From IMG/VR virus record IMGVR_UViG_3300031659_002244, positions 1-48,192 of that record: a DNA stretch of 48,192 bases; one strand, written 5' to 3'. Shown piece after piece: positions 5,062 to 47,211 of this stretch. The stretch is from a virus. Each line of letters starts with the position of its first letter. Position 1 is the first letter of the stretch. Both the position numbers and the translations under genes were made by a program. The notes beneath the pieces were generated by a model, which ran no database searches, was not told the origin of the DNA, and saw nothing but the letters and a program-made list of their open reading frames with translations.

Positions 5062-5136
5062 TGGAGCGGGAGGTGGGGTACGATCCCACGACCTTCTGTT
5101 TGGCAAACAGATGCGCTACCACTGCGCTACTCCCGC
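5062..5136 (-). tRNA. tRNA-Gly (GCC)
   Basis: The cloverleaf is complete: acceptor GCGGGAG/CTCCCGC, D-arm GCGC/GCGC, anticodon stem TCTGT/ACAGA with loop TTGCCAA (anticodon GCC), T-stem GTGGG/CCCAC, and encoded CCA. The T-loop reads ATCGTAC rather than the usual TTCGAAT-type sequence, so the universally conserved T54-A58 pair is A-T instead. It starts 2 nt downstream of the tmRNA gene on the same strand. Confidence 0.93.
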
Positions 5137-5138
5137 TA

Positions 5139-5390
5139 ATAAGTAGCAGTTTTTCTGTTTCGAGGAAAACTGCCAAACCCAAGCCCTACTTAAGCGGCAA
5201 TAGCTAAATCGTAATCATTAGCGTTTATCATTTTGAATGATTGATAACCGAGCCATCATTCTTCTCGGTGCTGTCCGTATACCTTCCAATTGCAATCGAA
5301 ACCGGCTATCCCCCGTAAGTGGAGGATGGGGGAATCGAACCCCCGTCTTACAACATTCCGTTATACAGATTATACAGCAATCTTCGACAG
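5139..5390 (-). ncRNA. ssrA: Circularly permuted (two-piece) tmRNA, ssrA
   Basis: The gene order on the - strand is the permuted one: acceptor piece first, coding piece second. The T-arm at 5328-5344 (GGGGG, TTCGATT, CCCCC) is followed by 3' acceptor strand ATCCTCC (5321-5327) and discriminator A (5320). After only 5 nt, the 5' acceptor strand GGGGGAT (5308-5314) begins; the two strands pair over 7 bp with one G-U. GGTTTCGA, typical of the tmRNA D-like region, follows. A P2-like helix joins the pieces: TTGCAAT (5289-5295) with 5349-5356, and TATACGG (5275-5281) with CTGTATA (5362-5368). The resume frame 5190-5222 encodes ANDYDLAIAA then TAA, a classic degradation tag. A terminal helix/hairpin lies at 5139-5193. 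CCA is not encoded. The 5' end of the acceptor piece is approximate. Confidence 0.93.
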
Positions 5391-5462
5391 TTCATATAAT
5401 ACAACTGCCAAAGCCAAAACTGCTACTAAAAATGCAGATATCTCTACCCAATGTTCATTCAT
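5370..5462 (-). CDS. 30-residue single-pass membrane peptide
   Basis: ATG at 5462 lies 1 nt after the stop of the dNMP kinase gene, with AGGTG upstream. The frame encodes a 30-residue peptide with one membrane helix (FLVAVLALAVVLYEL) and stops at 5370-5372, next to the tmRNA acceptor piece. Small membrane peptides of this kind recur across the window. Function unknown; the frame could be chance, but the hydrophobic pattern and tight spacing argue for a gene. Confidence 0.5.
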   Translation of the reverse strand: MNEHWVEISAFLVAVLALAVVLYELSKIAV

Positions 5463-30074: not shown

Positions 30075-30668
30075 CTAGTCCTCCTTTTTGATTTTTAGTT
30101 TTTTACCTATTTCCTTAAAAACAATTTTAGCAAGTGCTGTATTATTGGTCATAAGACCTTCTTTGAACTTACCAAATTTGTCCTTCACAACGAATTCTCG
30201 CATCTTGGAGCCGGACATTCCAGCTACACCCTCTGCGTCAGGATCACGATTGCCCGCAGAAACAACTAAAAACTCTTTAATGTTATCAAGGTCACTATCA
30301 ACATACTTCGTCATATTTCTTTTAAACTCAGCAACTCTATCACTACCTACAACAAATATAACTTTTTCATAATTATTATTCAATGAATATATAACATCAA
30401 ACGGTGTCCTGATAGTTGTATCTGTATTTATAATGTTTCCGAATACGTCTTTTAAAACTTTCACCTTAGTTTTAAATGATAAAGGATTACTCTTTTTATC
30501 TTCGGTCTTTGAAGGATACACCATTGGTGTACCACCTTCCTTTTTGGCAACTGCTATAACTTTTTCAATAAGTTTAGAGTGACCAAGAGTAGGTGGATTC
30601 ATACGGCCGAACGCAAACACAGCAGTTTTCTGTTTTGCCTCTATTATGAATTTTCTGAAAGTTATCAT
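30075..30668 (-). CDS. HxGH-type nucleotidylyltransferase with capsid-targeting-like N-terminus
   Basis: This 197-residue protein starts MITFRKFIIE (Glu at 10), the shared N-terminal tag of this cluster. It continues TAVFAFGRMNPPTLGHSKLI, the (H/T)xGH motif of cytidylyl/NMN adenylyltransferases. EKVIFVVGSDRVAEF and AGMSGSKMREFV (ISxTxxR-like) complete the fold. It may make NAD or activate another nucleotide. If the tag works as in T4 internal proteins, it is packaged and cut after Glu10. ATGA overlap with the next gene upstream. Confidence 0.8.
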   Translation of the reverse strand: MITFRKFIIEAKQKTAVFAFGRMNPPTLGHSKLIEKVIAVAKKEGGTPMVYPSKTEDKKSNPLSFKTKVKVLKDVFGNIINTDTTIRTPFDVIYSLNNNYEKVIFVVGSDRVAEFKRNMTKYVDSDLDNIKEFLVVSAGNRDPDAEGVAGMSGSKMREFVVKDKFGKFKEGLMTNNTALAKIVFKEIGKKLKIKKED

Positions 30669-31027
30669 TCGACTTTACCAATCCAATCATTAATTTTCTT
30701 AACTACATCCTTTGCGGATTTAATCTTTGACTTGCGTAATTTTTTTGTTTCAAACTTACGACTTGCCTGAGACATTTCCATTGTACCATCACGTTCAATA
30801 CTCAAATTTGCAAATCGGGAATTGAACCATGAAGTACCACCTTTACTTGCTTCTTTATCAACAGAAAACTTAACCAGTATGGATACATTTTCATCACCAC
30901 CAAGAGTCGATATTTCTACATGGACAACTGGTGCTTTGATACCTTTCTCAATTTCTTTCTTCCAAGCTTCCGCATCACTGACATCAAAATATGAAGCTTC
31001 TGTCATCAACTCTTTGTATGATTTCAT
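30665..31027 (-). CDS. Small CTS-type protein, function unknown
   Basis: This 120-residue protein begins MKSYKELMTE followed by Ala, aligning with the tag of its neighbours. The rest is a small alpha/beta domain (VVHVEISTLGGDENVSILVKF; WFNSRFANLSIERDG) and a basic C-terminus (RKFETKKLRKSKIK). No family is recognised. ATGA overlaps on both sides show strict cotranslation. Confidence 0.75.
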   Translation of the reverse strand: MKSYKELMTEASYFDVSDAEAWKKEIEKGIKAPVVHVEISTLGGDENVSILVKFSVDKEASKGGTSWFNSRFANLSIERDGTMEMSQASRKFETKKLRKSKIKSAKDVVKKINDWIGKVE

Positions 31028-31278
31028 TTCTTTATAACCTTTGCTGTCTTGAGGTTTTTACCAGCCATTTTAGAAACTGCAATTGCTGTTGCATCCGTTT
31101 CCTTAGTTACTTCCCATTTTCCACTTTTGTCCGAAACATAATTCCAAACATATTCCTCACCATCAATCTTGGAAACAATTTGTGCTCCACCATGCATTGA
31201 TGAGTGTCTACCTTTAACTAAATCTGCAAACTTAACAGTATCTTTAGCTTCAGTCATTAGTTGTTTGTATGATTTCAC
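31024..31278 (-). CDS. Small CTS-type protein, function unknown
   Basis: This 84-residue protein begins MKSYKQLMTE-AKDTV. The remaining basic domain (HGGAQIVSKIDGEEYVWNYVS) is small and beta-rich. It is the shortest member of the tagged cluster and could be a simple internal head protein like T4 IPI. ATGA overlaps both neighbours. Confidence 0.75.
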   Translation of the reverse strand: MKSYKQLMTEAKDTVKFADLVKGRHSSMHGGAQIVSKIDGEEYVWNYVSDKSGKWEVTKETDATAIAVSKMAGKNLKTAKVIKK

Positions 31279-31805
31279 TTTAGTTTTTTATAGTATGGAT
31301 TAATATTCTTCATCATCCAAGCATTGTCTGCTTGTGAAGTAGAACCTTGTTTTTGATTCCGTTTCATAATCTCTTTAACTTTTTTCACTTCGTCTTCCGT
31401 ACCAAAGAATTTAGCCAACATCATAAAGTTTTCTGTATGAGCATTGTTATCTTCATTCTCTTTATACTTCTTCATCACTGCTTTCTTATCTACCTTATCT
31501 TGATGTTTACCGAAACCTGCTTCATCTATCTCTTCTTCGTCATCTTCTTCATTTTTACTTCTACGACCATCACCACCAGCACACCTTCGTCTTGCACCAT
31601 CTTTCTTAATAAATTCTTTAACTAGACCTTCAGCCTTTTCATCTTCACCCTTCCACTCTTTATCAATCTCATCAAAGAACTTTTTCTTTTCTTCATCAGA
31701 CAACTCAGCAGGGCTAGATACTTTAAACTTAGCAAGTTTCTTATCAAAGAATTTCTTATATTCTGCTTTAGTTCCTTCACTCATTAAACTTTTAAATGTT
31801 TTCAT
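31275..31805 (-). CDS. CTS-type internal-protein-like gene
   Basis: This 176-residue, highly charged protein begins MKTFKSLMSE-GTKAE. It has a Lys/Glu-rich helical region, an RRRCAGGDGRRSK patch, an acidic run (NEEDDEEEIDEAGFG) and a C-terminal part with NPYYKKLK. No enzyme fold is evident. High charge and the N-terminal tag recall T4 internal head proteins. Confidence 0.75.
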   Translation of the reverse strand: MKTFKSLMSEGTKAEYKKFFDKKLAKFKVSSPAELSDEEKKKFFDEIDKEWKGEDEKAEGLVKEFIKKDGARRRCAGGDGRRSKNEEDDEEEIDEAGFGKHQDKVDKKAVMKKYKENEDNNAHTENFMMLAKFFGTEDEVKKVKEIMKRNQKQGSTSQADNAWMMKNINPYYKKLK

Positions 31806-32035
31806 TTCAGTTTTCCTTTATTTTCTAATTCGGTTTCATCCAAATGAAGTTTATTCCAAGCATCTCTACCCTTATACCGTTTACCACCGTGAAACACATT
31901 TTTCATCTGCCAAGACATTGCTTTATGATTCGAGCATTTACATTCAAATTTCCACATTGCATTACATTTTTTACAATACCGTGACCTAGTAGATATCGTT
32001 TCCCTGCCACTGATCTTTCCCATAACCTGCTTCAT
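31802..32035 (-). CDS. Small zinc-binding basic protein
   Basis: This 77-residue protein has RYCKKCNAMWKFECKCSNHKAM, a CxxC plus CxCxxH cluster likely to bind zinc, and a basic, Trp-rich remainder. It lacks the N-terminal tag of its neighbours. Starts at 32035 or 32023 are both possible. It overlaps the upstream gene by about 50 nt. Confidence 0.6.
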   Translation of the reverse strand: MKQVMGKISGRETISTRSRYCKKCNAMWKFECKCSNHKAMSWQMKNVFHGGKRYKGRDAWNKLHLDETELENKGKLK

Positions 32036-32228
32036 CCTCTCTAATTTTTAATAATTCTCTTCCTAATTCTTTTAATTGTTCATCACCATCTAAAGAAGAA
32101 TTAGATTTCTCTCGTTCTTTTACTAGCTCGACAATCTTTGAATCATGCTCAAAATATTGTTCTTTCTCTTCATACTTGGCAATAAATTTGTTTAGAATTC
32201 TTCTAATTTCTTTTAAGTCCTCTAACAT
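31986..32228 (-). CDS. Small coiled-coil protein
   Basis: This 80-residue charged helical protein (LEDLKEIRRILNKFIAKYEEKEQYF) probably forms a coiled coil. No family is recognised. It lies between the ligase-like gene and the zinc-binding gene in the tagged cluster but has no tag itself. Confidence 0.6.
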   Translation of the reverse strand: MLEDLKEIRRILNKFIAKYEEKEQYFEHDSKIVELVKEREKSNSSLDGDEQLKELGRELLKIREDEAGYGKDQWQGNDIY

Positions 32229-32243
32229 AATATACCCTTTCGA

Positions 32244-33461
32244 TTATACTTTAGCATCCCAATTCTTAGCTGTTGTAAATAGATTTTTAGTAAATTCTAA
32301 TCGGTCAACCAATTTAACAATCTGACCATTAGATATTGCTGTGAAACCTTCCTGACCAACTACCTTAAATCCAGAATCAGTTTTCAAGAAAGTTTTCAAT
32401 TGTTTTACTTTATTCAACTGGATAACAATCTGATTTTTGATAATAATCGTCTGTGCCATAAACTCAATAACAGTTTCCCAATCTCTCTTTTCAGATTTCA
32501 ATTGACCTCTTAGTGTTTTTTCTTTAACACTATCAAATGATTTCAAGTTTGATTTCTTTTCCTTAACTAACCAATCAATAAAATTAGAGAAAAACTTTTT
32601 AGAATTTGTAATAACAAAACCCTGTTTGATTTCATTGTTATCATATCGTTCAAGTTCTTTAGCAATACCGTCAGAGTTAGTTTTAATCTTGGTGATTGAA
32701 GATTTAGTTTTTGATGAAATAGTTTTTAGTTTTTTCAAAAGACTATTTAAATTTTTAGTTTCTGATTTACTAAATAATGCACCACCAACATCTGTAAGAT
32801 TAGCGTCATCAAACCAGACATCTTTATGTTGTTTAAATTCACTCTTAGAAACATCAAATGATGCTGACATTTCTGGAAGTGTTTTACCAGTATATCTAGT
32901 ATGAAATGCTATACCTAGTTTTGCATCTTTTATTTCTTTACCCAAATCACTATCAACTGGAACTCCGTATGCAATACTATTTGGTCTGAAAACTATTAGA
33001 GATTCATCATCAATAGATTCCTCTGATTTCTGTTTGTCCGTAAACATCAAGTCGCCTTGAAATACACCATCACCCTTCCAGATTTTAGGAAGTAGTTTCA
33101 ATGCAAGTTTTAGTTTGTTTACTAAATCACCAGAGCCACTATGGAATTTATCAACATCAGCATTTGTAAAATTAACCTTTGGAACTTTTTTTGCAAACAC
33201 TGATTTAGTCCCGACAAAGAACTTTTTAGTCACTGGGTCAATACCAGCAGTAAGTCCTGGCGAACCATCCCATTTAAGTCCAATTTTCAATTTACCACTC
33301 TTGCCACCACTCAACATATCAATCAGAGATTCTAGAAAATTGATTGTGGTTTTAATACCGTCACCGCCATCAATAAGCACCGTCTGGTCAATATGTGAAA
33401 GATGTGCGTTCTTAGCTTCAAATAGATTTTGTTCTTTAATAAATTTCTTAAAAGGTATCAT
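32244..33461 (-). CDS. Ligase-like nucleotidyltransferase with capsid-targeting-like N-terminus
   Basis: This 405-residue protein starts MIPFKKFIKE-QNLFEA. The core has KIGLKWDGSPGLTAG, resembling KxDG motif I (AMP-accepting Lys) of ATP ligases, then FFVGTKSVF and GVFQGDLMF, which could be motifs III and IV. It resembles DUF6267-type proteins of marine T4-like phages. The C-terminal 180 residues are a Lys-rich helical domain. A polynucleotide ligase or capping-type activity is inferred. It overlaps the upstream nucleotidyltransferase gene by ATGA. Confidence 0.65.
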   Translation of the reverse strand: MIPFKKFIKEQNLFEAKNAHLSHIDQTVLIDGGDGIKTTINFLESLIDMLSGGKSGKLKIGLKWDGSPGLTAGIDPVTKKFFVGTKSVFAKKVPKVNFTNADVDKFHSGSGDLVNKLKLALKLLPKIWKGDGVFQGDLMFTDKQKSEESIDDESLIVFRPNSIAYGVPVDSDLGKEIKDAKLGIAFHTRYTGKTLPEMSASFDVSKSEFKQHKDVWFDDANLTDVGGALFSKSETKNLNSLLKKLKTISSKTKSSITKIKTNSDGIAKELERYDNNEIKQGFVITNSKKFFSNFIDWLVKEKKSNLKSFDSVKEKTLRGQLKSEKRDWETVIEFMAQTIIIKNQIVIQLNKVKQLKTFLKTDSGFKVVGQEGFTAISNGQIVKLVDRLEFTKNLFTTAKNWDAKV

Positions 33462-34360
33462 ACAAACTCCTCCATTTCGTCTGGGACAACTAATCCTTTA
33501 GCTTTACTGATGATACCAAGGAATGATTTAATAACTTGACTCTTCTGTGACTTATACAAATATTTTGGATTGTCTAGTACTTTGAAAAGACTCTCAAAGG
33601 ATTCAGTATGACTTATATTGAATGTAGGCCCCAGAATTGCTTTAACAATACCTTCTGGTTGATTTTCAAGAATTTTAGTTTCTATTGTTTGTTTTCTTCC
33701 ATTTGCAAATATCTTACCAGTTTTACCAACTCTTGTCTGTAGTCCACGCATCAACCCACGTTTCATATCAATAAAATTTCTTTTGAATAAAACAGGGACT
33801 TCCTCACCATTTGCATCAAATCCTTTTTCAAGTGTCTCAAAATCCATTGCAGAAGCCATAGATGTTAATAGAATATTTCTATAAATACCTTTCCACTTTG
33901 ACTGCTCTTCGTCTGGACTCCAGAAATTAAACTTTGCAAGATTTAGGTTATCAACAATCATCAAGTCAAGTTGAACCTTTTTATTTTTTTGTTTACCATC
34001 AACATTTGAAATTGGCCATTCAAGTGAGATTACACCCGTTCCCTTATTGGAAACTGTGGTCTTAGAAATCTTCTTTACCTTGTCTGCAATGAAATCAAAT
34101 AGTTCATCAGCAACTTTAATACCATTTGCTCGTAAAACTTTATTTGCATCAATCGCCATATCAATGTCACCAGATGAACCGCCTGGTTTCTTCTTACCAG
34201 TTGAACCAAGTAGACCTGTATCTTTATCTGTAATCTTTAGAACCTTAATAATACCAGTTGAAATAGATTTCAAAGTATCAGCAACATTCTCCTGATTAAT
34301 ACGGTCAACACCTTTGACAGCATTACCGCCTTCTTTTATAAATCGTTTAAATGTTTTCAA
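33458..34360 (-). CDS. Pol-beta-type nucleotidyltransferase with capsid-targeting-like N-terminus (TTG start)
   Basis: This 300-residue protein starts (TTG)KTFKRFIKE-GGNAV. KKKPGGSSGDIDMAID is a GSS...DxD nucleotidyltransferase motif, and KKVQLDLMIVD adds a third carboxylate, as in the pol-beta superfamily. Related marine-phage genes are annotated only as nucleotidyltransferase. The UUG start is certain from the tag alignment; the 14-codon frame at 34357-34401 ends in TGA overlapping it (TTGA), so initiation may depend on coupling. First gene of the tagged cluster after the promoter at 34541-34569. Confidence 0.75.
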   Translation of the reverse strand: MKTFKRFIKEGGNAVKGVDRINQENVADTLKSISTGIIKVLKITDKDTGLLGSTGKKKPGGSSGDIDMAIDANKVLRANGIKVADELFDFIADKVKKISKTTVSNKGTGVISLEWPISNVDGKQKNKKVQLDLMIVDNLNLAKFNFWSPDEEQSKWKGIYRNILLTSMASAMDFETLEKGFDANGEEVPVLFKRNFIDMKRGLMRGLQTRVGKTGKIFANGRKQTIETKILENQPEGIVKAILGPTFNISHTESFESLFKVLDNPKYLYKSQKSQVIKSFLGIISKAKGLVVPDEMEEFV

Positions 34361-34401
34361 TTATTGATGCCTTTAAGAATTGTAAAATCGGAAGATTCCA
34401 T
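34357..34401 (-). CDS. 14-codon leader frame coupled to the TTG start
   Basis: ATG at 34399-34401 opens 14 codons (starting MESSDFTILKG) whose TGA overlaps the UUG start of the next gene. Its own ribosome site is weak. It may let ribosomes reach a poor start codon. The rest of the 34361-34608 gap holds the promoter, an A/T-rich leader and the repeated element at 34580-34599. Confidence 0.35.
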   Translation of the reverse strand: MESSDFTILKGINN

Positions 34402-34540
34402 TGCAACTTTTATTTTATCTGACTAGTACCCTGTTCTATTATTAGCTTCAAAATGAGCTACTGTATTATTATTTTAGGGACTTTATTTAAAAGAGACTGT
34501 GTTACAATGAAATACTTTCCATTTTTTATTTTATACTACT

Positions 34541-34569
34541 ATTATACCATACATTTATCTATATGTCAA
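34541..34569 (-). promoter_or_regulatory. Consensus early promoter (TTGACA-N17-TATAAT)
   Basis: TTGACA (34564-34569), a 17-nt spacer and TATAAT (34541-34546): full sigma-70 consensus, here without TTTTTCC upstream. Its leader of about 170 nt precedes the tagged cluster gene at 33458-34360. Confidence 0.85.
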
Positions 34570-34579
34570 GAGAAATCAT

Positions 34580-34599
34580 TAAGTTGTTGTTTCTAAAGG
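34580..34599. repeat. 20-nt element shared with 18314-18333
   Basis: TAAGTTGTTGTTTCTAAAGG here differs at one base from 18314-18333. Both copies lie between a gene end and a TTGACA promoter on the - strand. Here the partner arm is reduced, so only a weak hairpin with the sequence up to 34610 can form. Confidence 0.7.
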
Positions 34600-34608
34600 G
34601 TTTAAGAC

Positions 34609-36006
34609 TTATGTTATTTCAACACCCGGAGTAGTGATAAACAAAGATTTTCCTTGCCATCCACCTGCAGCTCTCGTTCTACAAGTTATTGGAATATTTA
34701 TATTTTTATCTTCATACCTGAATTTAAGTTTAAATTGTTGAGATTTACCATCATACTCGAACTTTATAGCTTTTAATTTAGAACTATCTTTATTCAATAA
34801 AAGATTTCTTAAATCTTCATTAGTACTAACATCTTTTAAAATAGAACCATTTGTGCTTCCTATTAATAACTTATAAGGACAAGGAGTTGTATTAGGATCA
34901 TCAAACGTATAAAAAGCAATAGTATTTAAAAAATATACTAGGTTATTAGATTTCTTTAAAGAACTACCTAAATTTTTAATAAGTTCATTTCTATAAATAT
35001 GATAAAAATCTTCACCATAAAAATTTAATTTATCCTTTATAAAAGTTTTTGCTATATCAGCAAATCCTCTTTTAGAAGAAGATTCAGATGGTTTTTCTTT
35101 TGTAATATCAAATCTATTTAATGCAGCTACTGATTTTTTTAATTTTTTCGGGACAGTTCCTTCAGCAGTTTTCCATGCGTCATCCATCCAAGAAATACTA
35201 TTTTTGATAAATTTATTATTTCCCAACTTACTAAAAAATGCCCAAATATTTGTATTAAATTTTGGTGTGACATCTTTTCCAGAGGCAATCTTGTTTGAAT
35301 AACCAATGTAACTACCATCTTTTAATTGTACTATTACATCTGAAGGATTTCCTTTACTAATACCATCCGGCTTTCCTCTGGGAGTCCAATATAATTTACT
35401 CCAACTTTTTCCTAAATCTTTTTTTACTTCTTTAGCATTATTAAGACCTATTTCTATATCTCTTTCTGCTGTATCATCTGCATCCAACAACTCTTTTAAA
35501 TGTTCATAAGTTACTTCGTCACCCTCACCTCTATAAACACCCGTTCCACCAGTTAAACCACCGACTTCTTTCATCCATTCAAAAGCAGTTGATTTGGTAG
35601 GATTTTTTAAAAAGTACAAAGACAAAAACTCATTTACATCAGAAGAAGCTGTGGAATTTTTTCTTGATTGTTGACCGTAATGTGATTTTACTGTAGACTT
35701 AGTAGTTTTAATAAAGTATTTCGTTGAAACCTTTTTATCACTAACCAAAAGAACTATTTGAAAAATATATTTTCCACCAAAATCAATAGCAAGTTTTCCC
35801 TTTCCAGAATCAACATTCTGAAACATTATCTCATCATATTCATCAACACCATCAATATGTGTATTATCAAGAAATTCTTCCGTTGATTTTATCACATTAT
35901 CATCTAAAGTATAATAAGGATTAAATTCATTTTTTTGTTTATAATCAGGAGAAATAGTCAATTCACTCAATAATTCTTCTGCTATAAATTTCTTAAAAGT
36001 TTTCAT
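34609..36006 (-). CDS. Large CTS-type protein, possible PD-(D/E)XK nuclease
   Basis: This 465-residue protein starts MKTFKKFIAE-ELLSEL, the best match of the cluster to the T4 internal-protein tag (MKTYQEFIAE). Residues about 200-235 contain WTPRGKPDGISKGNPSDVI, VQLKDGSYIGYSNKI, a pattern like D...(E/Q)xK-type nuclease cores (SDVIV, then strand, then GYSNK). It ends with TCRTRAAGGWQGKSLFITTPG. The nuclease call is weak. It would be a large protein delivered with DNA if the tag is functional. Confidence 0.6.
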   Translation of the reverse strand: MKTFKKFIAEELLSELTISPDYKQKNEFNPYYTLDDNVIKSTEEFLDNTHIDGVDEYDEIMFQNVDSGKGKLAIDFGGKYIFQIVLLVSDKKVSTKYFIKTTKSTVKSHYGQQSRKNSTASSDVNEFLSLYFLKNPTKSTAFEWMKEVGGLTGGTGVYRGEGDEVTYEHLKELLDADDTAERDIEIGLNNAKEVKKDLGKSWSKLYWTPRGKPDGISKGNPSDVIVQLKDGSYIGYSNKIASGKDVTPKFNTNIWAFFSKLGNNKFIKNSISWMDDAWKTAEGTVPKKLKKSVAALNRFDITKEKPSESSSKRGFADIAKTFIKDKLNFYGEDFYHIYRNELIKNLGSSLKKSNNLVYFLNTIAFYTFDDPNTTPCPYKLLIGSTNGSILKDVSTNEDLRNLLLNKDSSKLKAIKFEYDGKSQQFKLKFRYEDKNINIPITCRTRAAGGWQGKSLFITTPGVEIT

Positions 36007-36013
36007 AGTTTCT

Positions 36014-36202
36014 CTATAGGTTAGCTATTTTACAAAGTGGGCATTCGTCCACATTCAATGATCTGAATGGGCATATTTTATAATGGTCTATATTGGTGGC
36101 CATCTTGATACGCAAGATAGAATTTTCTCCTACATCTTTATTTTGTTTGATTGCCTTTTCTGCTACATCAGCAAACATTTGTTTAATATTTTTGTTTTCC
36201 AT
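36014..36202 (-). CDS. Small Cys-containing protein
   Basis: This 62-residue protein ends with CPFRSLNVDECPLCKIANL, three Cys suited to metal binding. The ATG at 36202 (AAGGTG upstream) is chosen over the one at 36214, because the latter lies at or before the predicted transcription start of the promoter at 36221-36251. Function unknown. Confidence 0.65.
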   Translation of the reverse strand: MENKNIKQMFADVAEKAIKQNKDVGENSILRIKMATNIDHYKICPFRSLNVDECPLCKIANL

Positions 36203-36220
36203 ATCACCTTCCATACACTA

Positions 36221-36251
36221 TATTTATAATACTTTTTCGGTAAACTGTCAA
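36221..36251 (-). promoter_or_regulatory. Overlapping early and late promoter
   Basis: TTGACA (36246-36251), a 17-nt spacer, then TATAAATA (36221-36228), whose first six bases serve as a near-consensus -10 (TATAAA). The same start could be used by host-type and late-modified polymerase. The -35 box overlaps the stop codon of the upstream gene. Confidence 0.65.
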
Positions 36252-36472
36252 TTATAATTCTGTTTTATCAGAAATTCTGGTAGTTTCCACTCTACTTTAT
36301 CTTTATCTACACTATAATGACCCAACGAACCACAGAAATTACAATATTCTACTCCAACGTCATAATCCAGTGTTGTTGTATTGGCACGATGTTCACATAA
36401 CTTTTTCATTATTACAGGTTCTTTTTCCTTATCACGGTTAAACCAGCCTTCTGAAATAGTTAGGTCTTGCAT
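36248..36472 (-). CDS. Small zinc-type protein
   Basis: This 74-residue protein has LCEHRANTTTLDYDVGVEYCNFCGSLGHY, a C..H...CxxC...H arrangement that may bind zinc. AAGGGAG precedes its ATG and a TATAAATA lies 27 nt upstream, so it is likely a late gene within the replication region. Family unknown. Confidence 0.65.
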   Translation of the reverse strand: MQDLTISEGWFNRDKEKEPVIMKKLCEHRANTTTLDYDVGVEYCNFCGSLGHYSVDKDKVEWKLPEFLIKQNYN

Positions 36473-36498: not shown

Positions 36499-36506
36499 TA
36501 TTTATA
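36499..36506 (-). promoter_or_regulatory. Late promoter TATAAATA
   Basis: Exact TATAAATA on the - strand, leading into the 36248-36472 gene. It lies in the gap after the gp41 stop codon (36511). Confidence 0.65.
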
Positions 36507-36510
36507 AGAT

Positions 36511-37926
36511 TTAAATTTTCCAGTCTTCATACTGCTTCTCTGGTCTTTTTGATGGCTTCACCTTAAAAGTGTAAGGATTAGACTCTGTATTGGCATCGGT
36601 CTTCTTATCATAAAATTTATTACTACCATCATTTGCTAGTGCTGGTTGGGCATCCTCTTCAATATCAATCAATTTCATCTTCTTCTTAATAACATTCACC
36701 AAGAACTTAGCATTTATAGAAATATCACTATATCTATTTTTTAACTGTTTGAATAGAATTTGTTGATTACTCCCAGAACCATCATCCTTTGCTATAATTG
36801 CCATCATCAAATCTGCTGTAGCTGGTAATCCAAAACTCTCAGATGTATTTGATAAGTCTGGGTCTGAACTGGAATACCCTTCACGGTTCAATTGTGAACT
36901 TGTGATAATAGGAACATTACACTCTACTGCCAAACCACGAACTTCCTCAGCAATGGATTTGATATAGATATAAGAATTCATATTAGCAGCCCACTTCACT
37001 CTACTGGATGAACAGATATTCAGATAATCCAGAATGATAACTTTAGGAACAAATCCTTTTTTGATTTCTAACTCTCTTAACAAAGCACGAAAGTTTCCAA
37101 CGTGAGCTCCTGCTGTTGGATACTCTTTGATAATCAACTTACCAATATTTAACTTATCAAGTTTTTTCTGGAAAGTATCTTTCGGTAGCATATGAAGCTC
37201 GTTGATATCAATGTCAAGTAAGTTTGCATCAACCCTCTCAGCAATTCTTTCTTCTGACATTTCCATAGTAATATATAAAACATTCATACCCTGTTTGATA
37301 TACTGACTAGCCAAGTGAGTTTTTACAAGCGTCTTACCGACACCCGTTCCACCTAGTAATACTGTAAGAGTTTTTGGTGAGATACCACCATTTGTAATCT
37401 TGTCAAGCATCACCATGTCAAAAGGAATTTTGGATTCTTTCTTGTGATAGAATTCCCAACGGTCATCACCATTCTCTAAATAGTTATGACCAATACTTTT
37501 ATCCAATGATATTGCTAATGCTTCTGTAAGAATTTCTGGTATAGCATCTTTAGAAAGAAGTTTGTCCTTTCCTTCAATGATGGATATACTCTGGACAATA
37601 CCATTGTACACAGCTTGAGTCTTTGCCCATCTTTCAGTTTCTTCCGTCAACCATTGCTCATCATCAGTTTTTGCAGTTAAAGATTTGAGGAGTTCTTCAC
37701 AAGATTTGAATGTTGATTCGTTCAAGTCTTCTCTGTTATTTAACTTAACAGCAAGAACTTCTTTTGCGGGAGGTGCGTTATATTCGGTGATGTGATTTTG
37801 TATTTCAATAAACACTTGTTTCTCTGCGTTATCTTTGAAATACTCTGGCTTCAAGAAAGTACCGACAATACTTGAATAGTTATCATTATATATTAGATTT
37901 TCTAAAATCAATGTTTCAGTTCGCAT
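36511..37926 (-). CDS. 41: Replicative DNA helicase gp41
   Basis: This 471-residue DnaB/gp41-family helicase unwinds the fork ahead of the gp43 polymerase and recruits gp61 primase. Walker A is LLGGTGVGKTLVK, Walker B VIILDYLNI, and the C-terminal motif SSQLNREGYSSSDPDLSNTSESFGLPATADLM is characteristic of the family. The C-terminal tail is basic and disordered. AAAGGG precedes the ATG. The loader gene gp59 is directly upstream. Confidence 0.95.
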   Translation of the reverse strand: MRTETLILENLIYNDNYSSIVGTFLKPEYFKDNAEKQVFIEIQNHITEYNAPPAKEVLAVKLNNREDLNESTFKSCEELLKSLTAKTDDEQWLTEETERWAKTQAVYNGIVQSISIIEGKDKLLSKDAIPEILTEALAISLDKSIGHNYLENGDDRWEFYHKKESKIPFDMVMLDKITNGGISPKTLTVLLGGTGVGKTLVKTHLASQYIKQGMNVLYITMEMSEERIAERVDANLLDIDINELHMLPKDTFQKKLDKLNIGKLIIKEYPTAGAHVGNFRALLRELEIKKGFVPKVIILDYLNICSSSRVKWAANMNSYIYIKSIAEEVRGLAVECNVPIITSSQLNREGYSSSDPDLSNTSESFGLPATADLMMAIIAKDDGSGSNQQILFKQLKNRYSDISINAKFLVNVIKKKMKLIDIEEDAQPALANDGSNKFYDKKTDANTESNPYTFKVKPSKRPEKQYEDWKI

Positions 37927-45181: not shown

Positions 45182-46453
45182 TTACTTAAAACTAAGTTCA
45201 GCTGGAGTACTTTCCTGTTTTTCAACAGGGGGTTTATCTTCTTTTAAAAATCTAATGCTATATTCACTATCCCAATCTCTATTCATATCATTGAATACAT
45301 CATTTAAAAACAATAAATTATTATATATTTTCTTTGGGAAAAATTCATCATATATCTCATTCATTCCAGAATTCAATATACTTGTAACATTATTAAGGTA
45401 CTCTAATTGTAAATAAAGATTGTGGTATGCCATACTACTATTAAATCCTTTAAAGCTAATAACATCTTCTCCCTCTTTATTTTTAACATAGTGGTTGAAA
45501 AAAGAATAGACATCATCTAAGTCAGTACAGATAGGGCAATGACAAGGCATCTTAAAATCTTTGGTTAATTTTTTGTAATCAATAGTATTAGGCCATGCCA
45601 TCGATCTCATGCCAGTTCCAACTACATATCTAGCTTCTGTGAAATATCCACCATAAACACAAGTCCTATTCCAATATGTAGAATCATATGTTATTTGAAC
45701 ATCGATACCCTTTTCATTTAATAACATTTGAATATACTGAAAATAAATCATACTCTCGTTTGACGTAACACCAAAAATATGAAAATATTTACATTCCTGT
45801 CTATCAAACTCACCATTCTTATGTAAAAACAATATAGCTGGAAGTATCTTTCCTAAGTTGCCTCTGGTTCCACCGTATGCCCAACCTTCAAACTTATATG
45901 GTGATATTGCATCATACCATTCTTTAATTTGTGGTATAGTTTGACCTTGGATAACATTCAAGATTTTTGCGTCAGTTCTTGTTCTATTTTCTGAATAATA
46001 CTTTGCTGATGTTACAGACAAATCTAAACACTCTTGATAATCTTTATATGGTGATACTGGTTTCCCATCTCTCATCATACCTAATGTAAAGGTTGGTCTA
46101 TCCAAAATTGGAAATATATCTCCATTTTCTTCACTCCACTTTAAAGCTACTTCATCAGTATACTTTGTAATATCAACTGTATTCTGTGCCAACTGATATC
46201 CACCACTGTCAACAAAAACAGTTGCGTCTTGAGCTTGAATTAAATTTCTAAAGTTTTTTCTTTTATGTGATGAACCAGCTGATATCAATATGTATTGATT
46301 TTTAAAATAAGAATCACTATCTTTCTGAAAAATCCTCAATGACTTCTTTTCTGAAAAATCCATTTGATACTCTTCTCTAATCTGTAAATCATCCTTCTCT
46401 AACATATTCATCAAACCATCACTATATGCAGGTATATATATTGCGTCTTTCAT
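45182..46453 (-). CDS. dpdA: TGT/DpdA-like 7-deazaguanine transglycosylase
   Basis: This 423-residue protein is related to tRNA-guanine transglycosylase: ATVFVDSGGYQLAQ (TGT DSGGFQ), ILNVIQGQT, GWAYGG, and a zinc site CHCPIC plus a downstream His in AYHNLY. An Asp in QITYDSTYW may be the nucleophile. Phage homologues (DpdA) insert 7-deazaguanines into DNA. The neighbours queC and folE support this. It could also act on tRNA. ATGA overlap with queC. The Pro/Glu-rich tail is not conserved. Confidence 0.85.
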   Translation of the reverse strand: MKDAIYIPAYSDGLMNMLEKDDLQIREEYQMDFSEKKSLRIFQKDSDSYFKNQYILISAGSSHKRKNFRNLIQAQDATVFVDSGGYQLAQNTVDITKYTDEVALKWSEENGDIFPILDRPTFTLGMMRDGKPVSPYKDYQECLDLSVTSAKYYSENRTRTDAKILNVIQGQTIPQIKEWYDAISPYKFEGWAYGGTRGNLGKILPAILFLHKNGEFDRQECKYFHIFGVTSNESMIYFQYIQMLLNEKGIDVQITYDSTYWNRTCVYGGYFTEARYVVGTGMRSMAWPNTIDYKKLTKDFKMPCHCPICTDLDDVYSFFNHYVKNKEGEDVISFKGFNSSMAYHNLYLQLEYLNNVTSILNSGMNEIYDEFFPKKIYNNLLFLNDVFNDMNRDWDSEYSIRFLKEDKPPVEKQESTPAELSFK

Positions 46454-47211
46454 ATCACTCCTTTATTTGTTAAGGCTTCACACCAATCATAATCTTCTTT
46501 TCCTCTATATGTTTTTTCAAGTATAGATGGAATAAGTTTCTCCAGCCAAGGAGCCTTCCAAGGATCATTCTTATAATAACCTACTGGTATATCTATATTA
46601 TTGTTATAAAGAGAAATCCATTTACGAAAACATGGTTTACACCAACCACAAGTTTGTTCTGTGCCATCATAACAACTATATGATTCTAACAATGATTCGG
46701 AACTACCACCCTTCTCCAAGAACTCTTTAACAATTTCTGTTTTTGTCGTTTCTTTATATGGTGAACTAACTGTAAAAACTCGTTCCTCAGTCCAATGTTG
46801 CGCCTTCCACATATGATTTAACAAGTCTGTCATTTTCTCATAGAATATAGGATCTTTATCAAACGACCTATCACCCTGTACACTACCAAGAATTAAGTTT
46901 TCACCATACATGGAAGCTATCAACATTAGATGTGCGTTACGATTTGGAACAATTGCGTCATCACGTTCAAACAAACTTAGATTTAAAAGATCAGTCAATA
47001 TAATTAACTTTGATCCGTCTATATAACCTTTATCAGCTAAATTATAAATCTTCTTAGTTTCTATACCCTCATATTTACTTCCAGTAGGTAAATATAATAA
47101 AACATCTGGTTTCAATAAATAATCAAATATTAAACTATCCATACCACCAGAAAACAAAAGAACCGTTTTACCAGTTGCTTTATGTTTTTCATTTGTTATC
47201 ATATTTGACAT
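46450..47211 (-). CDS. queC: QueC-like 7-cyano-7-deazaguanine synthase
   Basis: This 253-residue PP-loop ATPase has LLFSGGMDSLIF at the N-terminus, and a zinc-binding region SCYDGTEQTCGWCKPCFRKW as in QueC. QueC turns 7-carboxy-7-deazaguanine into preQ0. The middle is more diverged than in bacterial QueC (for example IVPNRNAHLMLIASMYGE is kept). It is cotranslated with the transglycosylase gene. Confidence 0.88.
   Translation of the reverse strand: MSNMITNEKHKATGKTVLLFSGGMDSLIFDYLLKPDVLLYLPTGSKYEGIETKKIYNLADKGYIDGSKLIILTDLLNLSLFERDDAIVPNRNAHLMLIASMYGENLILGSVQGDRSFDKDPIFYEKMTDLLNHMWKAQHWTEERVFTVSSPYKETTKTEIVKEFLEKGGSSESLLESYSCYDGTEQTCGWCKPCFRKWISLYNNNIDIPVGYYKNDPWKAPWLEKLIPSILEKTYRGKEDYDWCEALTNKGVI

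Follow-up and report, generated by a model that had tools for sequence, protein, structure and literature searches.

A probable T4-type capsid-targeting sequence at the N-terminus of seven proteins in a virus genome fragment

The internal proteins of bacteriophage T4 (IPI, IPII and IPIII) are described as injected anti-restriction proteins (PMC12373910, PMC9391042). For IPIII, the first ten residues are reported to be enough for packaging, and a mutational map assigned residues 4 and 7 to targeting and residues 8 and 10 to processing; cleavage by the gp21 protease occurs after L/I-x-E, and IPIII also influences head assembly (PMC9026906). The same source describes the T4 ADP-ribosyltransferase Alt as a head-packaged enzyme which is cut by gp21 and injected. 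The present analysis concerns a 48,192-nucleotide stretch of DNA from a marine bacterial virus (IMG/VR record IMGVR_UViG_3300031659_002244, positions 1 to 48,192; hereafter the window), in which seven genes between positions 30,075 and 36,006 encode proteins with a common ten-residue N-terminus, termed here the tag. An initial reading of the sequence (the original prediction) had proposed that the tag is of the T4 capsid-targeting type and that the proteins are a set of enzymes carried in the capsid and injected with the DNA. Overall, the analysis indicated that the tag is very probably a T4-type capsid-targeting sequence, with which the proteins would be packed in the prohead, cut by gp21 and delivered with the DNA.

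A ten-residue motif shared with the T4 internal proteins

A six-frame scan of open reading frames (ORFs) showed that residues 1-10 of 7/7 proteins fit the predicted pattern M-[KI]-x-[FY]-[KR]-x-[FL]-[IM]-x-E. The genes are named by the low coordinates given in the original prediction, which are their 3' ends, all seven being on the minus strand. From gene 1 to gene 7, they are 34609 (34609..36006, 465 amino acids (aa), MKTFKKFIAE/E, with the bar before E marking the predicted cut site), 33458 (33458..34360, 300 aa, MKTFKRFIKE/G), 32244 (32244..33461, 405 aa, MIPFKKFIKE/Q), 31275 (31275..31805, 176 aa, MKTFKSLMSE/G), 31024 (31024..31278, 84 aa, MKSYKQLMTE/A), 30665 (30665..31027, 120 aa, MKSYKELMTE/A) and 30075 (30075..30668, 197 aa, MITFRKFIIE/A). 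Two untagged small genes inside the run, at 31802-32035 and 31986-32228 on the minus strand, had been omitted. Among ORFs of at least 40 aa with any start codon in six frames, the pattern matched exactly the seven genes, with zero further ORFs in the rest of the window; when the residues of 83 minus-strand ORFs were shuffled 2,000 times, the mean number of matches was 0.0. Residue 4 was F or Y, residue 7 was F or L and residue 10 was E in all seven tags, and residue 8 was I in four and M in three. The tags of 31024 and 30665 were near-identical. For five of the seven tagged genes, the start overlaps the upstream stop by 4 bases, and a sixth start, that of 33458, is supported by its conserved place in relatives. 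Two starts are not ATG: gene 31024 uses GTG at 31278 and gene 33458 uses TTG at 34360, where its orthologues use ATG. With 12 residues removed, no BLASTP match was found between any two of the seven bodies at an E limit of 0.01, as expected from the claim that the domains behind the tag are unrelated.

The likeness to T4 was confirmed in the same analysis, in which IPII (MKTYQEFIAEAR) and IPIII (MKTYQEFIAEAS), read alongside as controls, start with MKTYQEFIAE/A and IPI starts with MKTFKEF. Like the three internal proteins, the tagged proteins have a leader of about ten residues (M-K-T-[FY]-x-x-F-I-x-E/A), have unrelated bodies and occur several per phage, and the gp21 family is present in their relatives. 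Unlike the T4 proteins, they occur in T4-like viruses of the sea, among them relatives of Kyanoviridae, and not in Tequatrovirus, their locus lies behind gp41 and is conserved over very distant phages, many of their bodies are enzymes, which can reach 900 aa, where those of T4 are small basic inhibitors, and a cytidylyltransferase and DUF6267 form a conserved core pair. The enzyme Alt is also packaged in the T4 head, and the tagged bodies include enzymes as judged by sequence; to our knowledge, the leader of Alt does not fit the tag motif.

The gp21 family was identified in 8/8 and 3/3 (11/11) of the relatives' records. The sites in the N-terminal region of gp23, read in the relatives by analogy with T4, which is cut at FLTE/A, were FLTE/T in C48C1, FLSE/A in Melnitz, FLGE/I in HTVC008M, LLGE/A in DLP_6 and ILTE/T in S-SM1. 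These [FLI]LxE sites of six phages resemble the pattern [FYL][ILM]xE in which the tags end.

The tag is an exchangeable module in relatives

The original prediction had also suggested looking for the motif in relatives, where it was found on some DUF6267 orthologues and was absent from others. Loci with DUF6267, the family of 32244, were collected by a profile scan of virus contigs, and 80 of the 593 found were taken in. A relaxed tag was present on 55 DUF6267 loci, a near form on 7 and none on 18, 2 of which were cut off at the 5' end; as a chance control, the internal start codons of the same loci were followed by the relaxed pattern in 18 of 8,805 cases. After dereplication, the tag was present on 51/76 DUF6267 ORFs, 49/830 other ORFs and 0/64 opposite-strand ORFs. 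Alignment of eight DUF6267 proteins showed that the tagged forms carry approximately 9-16 extra residues ahead of the common body start KN.HLEH, and the untagged proteins of S-CAM9 and P-HM2 begin at the body itself (MAKN and MSKN). In the S-PM2 record NC_006820 (L011 14992-16771), two annotated genes divide DUF6267 between them, and the gene labelled T4-GC190 starts inside this domain; the newer record LN828717 matches in one piece.

Clustering of 132 proteins from all loci, mostly tagged and with a few near-tag or untagged neighbours added for comparison, produced 34 sequence clusters, and the tag occurs on approximately 30 of them. Pfam hits of the tagged bodies of relatives included adenylate kinase (E 1.8e-40), zeta-toxin/AAA_33 with cytidylyltransferase, RimK ATP-grasp and N6/N4 methylase, and HAD-type bodies matched either phrog_415 ('polynucleotide kinase') or a family of deoxyribonucleotidases. 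Tagged HAD-type proteins with FDIDDTLF were located at L038 11516-12235, L072 6330-6947 and L029 2744-3493, and the phrog_415 matches of those in L038 and L072 were weak to moderate. Some of the tagged proteins were small and had bodies rich in Lys and Arg. The residue after the tag Glu was A, S or G in 73/134 proteins, and residue 11 was not imposed by the search pattern.

In orthologues of 33458 with 76-83% identity, tag residues 2, 3, 6 and 7 vary, and F4, K5, [IL]8, K9 and E10 are kept. In the eight contigs with such an orthologue (L112-L119), a tagged 33458 and a tagged DUF6267 stand in this order, and a tagged cytidylyltransferase comes next in 4/8. Among the contigs that extend upstream, five (L112, L113, L115, L118 and L119) have a tagged body ahead of 33458. 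The family in this first slot differed: the window family (34609) is shared with L008, where the homologue is untagged and starts at the body, another family is found in L113, L115 and L118, and a third in L112. The tag is therefore kept while the body changes, since different families occupy the first slot in close relatives. An origin at the nucleotide level, by recombination of gene starts, was rejected because the tag sequences differ yet key positions are kept.

Tagged genes were also found far from the helicase locus, as with S-CREM2 gp6 and gp14. A second tagged site was observed beside the terminase genes at L156 3311-4125 (S-SZBM1_191 and 192) and L157 8215-8535 (S-SCSM1_30). The small proteins encoded there, MKSFKSFLSESVNISGDFNGNLY.. 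and MKTFKQFMSESVNISGDFNGNLY.. (one family) and MKTFKQYITEAK.., were not detected in virions by mass spectrometry (MS). In addition, S-SCSM1_93 (L122 36626-36835, 69 aa), which is labelled a virion protein, has a tag-like C-terminus, RTFKEFLEYIE. This prompted a search for tags at C-termini, which yielded 4 candidates among 7,744 open frames and hence no pattern.

Tagged orthologues in virion proteomes and the weighing of alternatives

Tagged orthologues of 30075, one of the seven window genes, are present in four published virion proteomes of cyanophages. In S-SM1 virions, the citidylyltransferase T4-GC190 was found (Sullivan et al. 2010, PMC3037559); per its record this is SSM1_190, which has the N-terminus MKKFSAFLNE/A and shares 47% identity with 30075 across 164 residues. 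Another core protein of S-SM1 virions, T4-GC15, was set aside as it is annotated as a tail protein. The NMNAT ORF91 of S-SCSM1, with the N-terminus MKSFLQFLKE/A, is among 45 virion proteins (PMC9602691). The cytidylyltransferase S-SZBM1_140, with the N-terminus MRFRQFIIE/A, which is one residue shorter, is among 30 virion proteins with 2 peptides (PMC9146016, Table 1), and the adjacent untagged 141 (DUF6267) and 142 are absent from that table. Finally, the 52 virion proteins of S-CREM2 include the cytidylyltransferase gp154 with 3 peptides (PMC10665884), which starts with MKNFSSFLTE/A. In the accessible portions of these papers, the enzyme is left unexplained or considered possibly contaminating, and the tag is not mentioned.

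The tagged genes in the whole S-CREM2 genome are the SAM hydrolase gp6, the kinase gp14 and gp154, and these are exactly the three 'regulatory proteins' detected by MS in PMC10665884; the neighbours gp8, gp10 and gp11 were not detected. Near-tags were present on the MS-detected gp13 (MKDLHSFLTE/Q) and gp136 (MQTFSMFFSE/D). An MS-detected nuclease annotated as Cas9/Csn1, gp12 (L123 7704-10313), has a tag-like RFASFMAE/A at residues 18-25, and it is possible that gp12 is a packaged nuclease. Whole-genome scans of the four phages gave 11 tagged annotated genes; pattern matches that were unannotated or off an annotated start were dropped, one in S-SM1, one in S-CREM2 (inside nrdA) and two in S-SCSM1 (one of which, near 200733, was presumed to be of this kind).

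Several results weigh against a T4-type capsid-targeting sequence. The detected proteins were 6/11 of the tagged genes (3/3 in S-CREM2, 1/1 in S-SM1, 1/3 in S-SZBM1 and 1/4 in S-SCSM1), for which P = 0.006 at average detection rates with approximate denominators; this value overstates independence because four of the six detected genes are orthologues of each other. Neighbours without a canonical tag were also MS-detected, namely S-SCSM1 89, 90, 92 and 93, S-SZBM1_139 and S-CREM2 155, 156 and 160. The tags of other ORFs were not concentrated near DUF6267 (36/493, vs 13/273 of more distant same-strand ORFs, p = 0.22). Three window tags have Met at residue 8, where T4 sites have L or I. Finally, gp21 (PF03420) was not found in the window, and the protease of the window's own virus was thus not seen, the window being a 48-kb fragment.

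The authors themselves caution that such enzymes may be leftovers of the infected cell (PMC10665884, PMC9602691). Contamination of this kind by abundant cell proteins, with a coincidental agreement of tag and detection, would also accord with the few peptides obtained for S-SZBM1_140 and S-CREM2 gp154, but the same protein was detected in four phages by four papers, the three tagged proteins of S-CREM2 were detected and gp8, gp10 and gp11 were not, and the untagged proteins next to S-SZBM1_140 are missing from its table; this explanation is considered very unlikely. A role as core or structural helpers is another alternative, in which the proteins would be targeted to the prohead and cut but would stay there instead of being injected as effectors. 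The effect of IPIII on T4 head assembly (PMC9026906), the tagged Lys/Arg-rich small bodies and the untagged virion proteins encoded in the same block speak for it. However, bodies such as adenylate kinase, RimK ATP-grasp, DNA methylase, zeta-toxin-like kinase, SAM hydrolase and kinase in the relatives are enzymes and poor candidates for a scaffold, and bodies are swapped between close relatives, which makes a purely structural role unlikely.

The location of the genes, which are surrounded by early genes and follow the replicative helicase in a uvsX and gp41 neighbourhood common to cyanophages, HTVC008M and Melnitz, together with a perfect sigma-70-like promoter ahead of gene 2, could instead suggest that the N-terminus marks another destination such as the replisome, the membrane or a phage compartment. 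The tag nevertheless ends in a gp21-type site often followed by A, S or G, the tagged gp6 and gp14 of S-CREM2 are distant from the locus, and tagged proteins were detected in the virions of four phages, so that another destination appears very unlikely. The near-identity of the 31024 and 30665 tags would fit a tag that has no function and arose as a remnant or by accident when short stretches of DNA were duplicated at gene starts, but the functional positions are kept across relatives where others vary, and the tag is cleanly absent from some bodies and carried by many sequence clusters; such an origin is extremely unlikely. The T4-type capsid-targeting sequence is the explanation supported by the fit to the IPIII mutational map, by conserved bodies that have gained or lost the tag, by the gp23 sites and the 11/11 records with gp21, and by the MS detection of the tagged cytidylyltransferase in four relatives.

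Searches of open-licence PMC papers without supplements showed no report of such tags in marine T4-like phages among the titles and abstracts listed; for 'capsid targeting sequence' with 'cyanophage', a T4 review alone was found, and no literature was found on DUF6267.

Predicted functions, gene neighbourhood and proposed mechanism

The claim of a set of enzymes stood in part: it agrees with the sequence of 30075 and can be argued for 32244, and the others have motif guesses or no assigned function (31275, 31024 and 30665, the last of which matches phrog_3308). Among ten proteins scanned, only 30075 and 32244 exceeded the curated Pfam cut-off. The former, a cytidylyltransferase/NMNAT-like protein (phrog_3041), scored 26.7 bits with PF01467 against a cut-off of 21 and contains GRMNPPTLGH, which we take to be the (H/T)xGH motif of the cytidylyltransferase-like/NMNAT superfamily. 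Nothing credible was matched when A1, A3, 30075 and 34609 were used as queries in PDB sequence searches.

The protein 32244 belongs to DUF6267 (PF19782, Pfam E 2.9e-88). Its motifs KxDG, EG and K(L)VDR were fully or almost fully conserved in 72 sequences, with K63, D65, G66, E371, G372 and K383 as invariant residues. KxDG presumably corresponds to ligase motif I with the adenylated lysine, EG to motif IV and K383 to motif V; these motifs were noted ahead of any fold search. The AlphaFold model of DUF6267 had a pLDDT of 80.9 with very low confidence at residues 1-20, as expected of a loose leader. VIA-align with this model gave ATP-dependent RNA/DNA ligases as 49/50 among the matches listed, with moderate Z values: the best was 8.2 for the Naegleria RNA ligase (root-mean-square deviation 3.9, 181 residues), and T4 Rnl2 had 6.7. 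Foldseek gave 0 matches at E ≤ 0.001; the best rows were Mre11-Rad50, with T4 Rnl2 third at E 0.37. Like the ATP-dependent RNA ligases (T4 Rnl2, Naegleria Rnl5-type and the ligase domain of fungal Trl1; Z 6.7-8.2), DUF6267 has KxDG, EG and K in ligase order, but it differs from them in an identity of approximately 10% and a long helical insertion between motifs. Sequence motifs and model together suggest that DUF6267 is probably a divergent RNA-ligase-like nucleotidyltransferase dependent on ATP, with its activity being predicted.

For 33458, the motif GSxG..GGSSGDID..QLDLMIVD allows the guess of a Pol-beta-type nucleotidyltransferase-like protein. Its AlphaFold model from seven sequences was unusable (pLDDT 39.7), and a search of phage records gave only weak matches, in 15 records of Lak phages. 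For 34609, the core NPSD(V/I)..GYSNK, invariant in four sequences, would by a similar guess belong to a PD-(D/E)xK-like nuclease; a match to phrog_2496 was weak, no credible Pfam match was found and tblastn gave no matching phage record.

The conserved upstream neighbour of the run is the gp41-like replicative helicase (36511..37926, minus strand, phrog_19, E 1.4e-114). Upstream of gene 2, a sigma-70-like promoter was located at 34541..34569 on the minus strand (TTGACA, a spacing of 17, TATAAT, and TG before TATAAT; 12/12 matches), and promoter-like sites in the region were about as numerous as expected by chance. The element TATAAATA, which we take to be the T4 late promoter consensus, has 17 copies in the window, where 8.05 would be expected. 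Two copies on the minus strand lie just upstream of the tagged run, at 36221..36228 (upstream of 36014-36214 and gene 1) and at 36499..36506 (upstream of 36248-36472). With the sigma-70-like promoter and the TATAAATA elements, both early and late transcription of the run are possible. Elsewhere in the window, a phage-borne tmRNA gene of the permuted type was identified at 5062-5430 on the minus strand (RF04321 100.5 bits, RF01850 103.3 bits), adjoining a tRNA-Gly and with a predicted tag of ANDYDLAIAA, and a QueC-like queuosine biosynthesis gene (phrog_1550) at 46450-47211, also on the minus strand.

In the proposed mechanism, the first half of the tag, with an aromatic residue 4 and an aromatic residue or Leu at position 7, would bind the prohead core during head assembly, by which all seven proteins would be built into the prohead. 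A gp21 homologue would then cut after [ILM]-x-E at residue 10 and free the mature proteins inside the head, where they would remain with the packaged DNA and enter the host with it at infection. We infer these steps for the window's own virus, from packaging and cleavage to ejection and a function after entry. The locus behind the replicative helicase would be a cargo locus in which bodies are swapped and the tag is retained, and the cargo in the window would include the cytidylyltransferase/NMNAT-like enzyme and the probable RNA-ligase-like DUF6267. After entry, the most likely role would be counter-defence in the first minutes, or repair and nucleotide metabolism. More tentatively, and with considerable doubt, the tagged proteins may form a preformed virion toolkit, addressed by the tag, for nucleic-acid end repair and metabolism of nucleotides and nicotinamide adenine dinucleotide (NAD), which would act before phage gene expression against host nuclease or NAD-depletion defences, with the tag predicting injected cargo. 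The candidate members of this toolkit would be DUF6267 and the cytidylyltransferase/NMNAT, joined in relatives by adenylate kinase, HAD phosphatases similar to the 3'-phosphatase of polynucleotide kinase, P-loop kinases, the SAM hydrolase and the Cas9-annotated nuclease.

Few viruses of the sea are as abundant as cyanophages and their relatives. The groups that found NMNAT or cytidylyltransferase in their particles could not tell cargo from contamination (PMC10665884, PMC9602691). A T4-type tag on these virion enzymes would provide a mechanism and a sequence rule by which further cargo can be predicted. If true, the T4 internal proteins, so far a handful of small anti-restriction proteins in coliphages, would become part of a widespread and exchangeable system of enzyme delivery.

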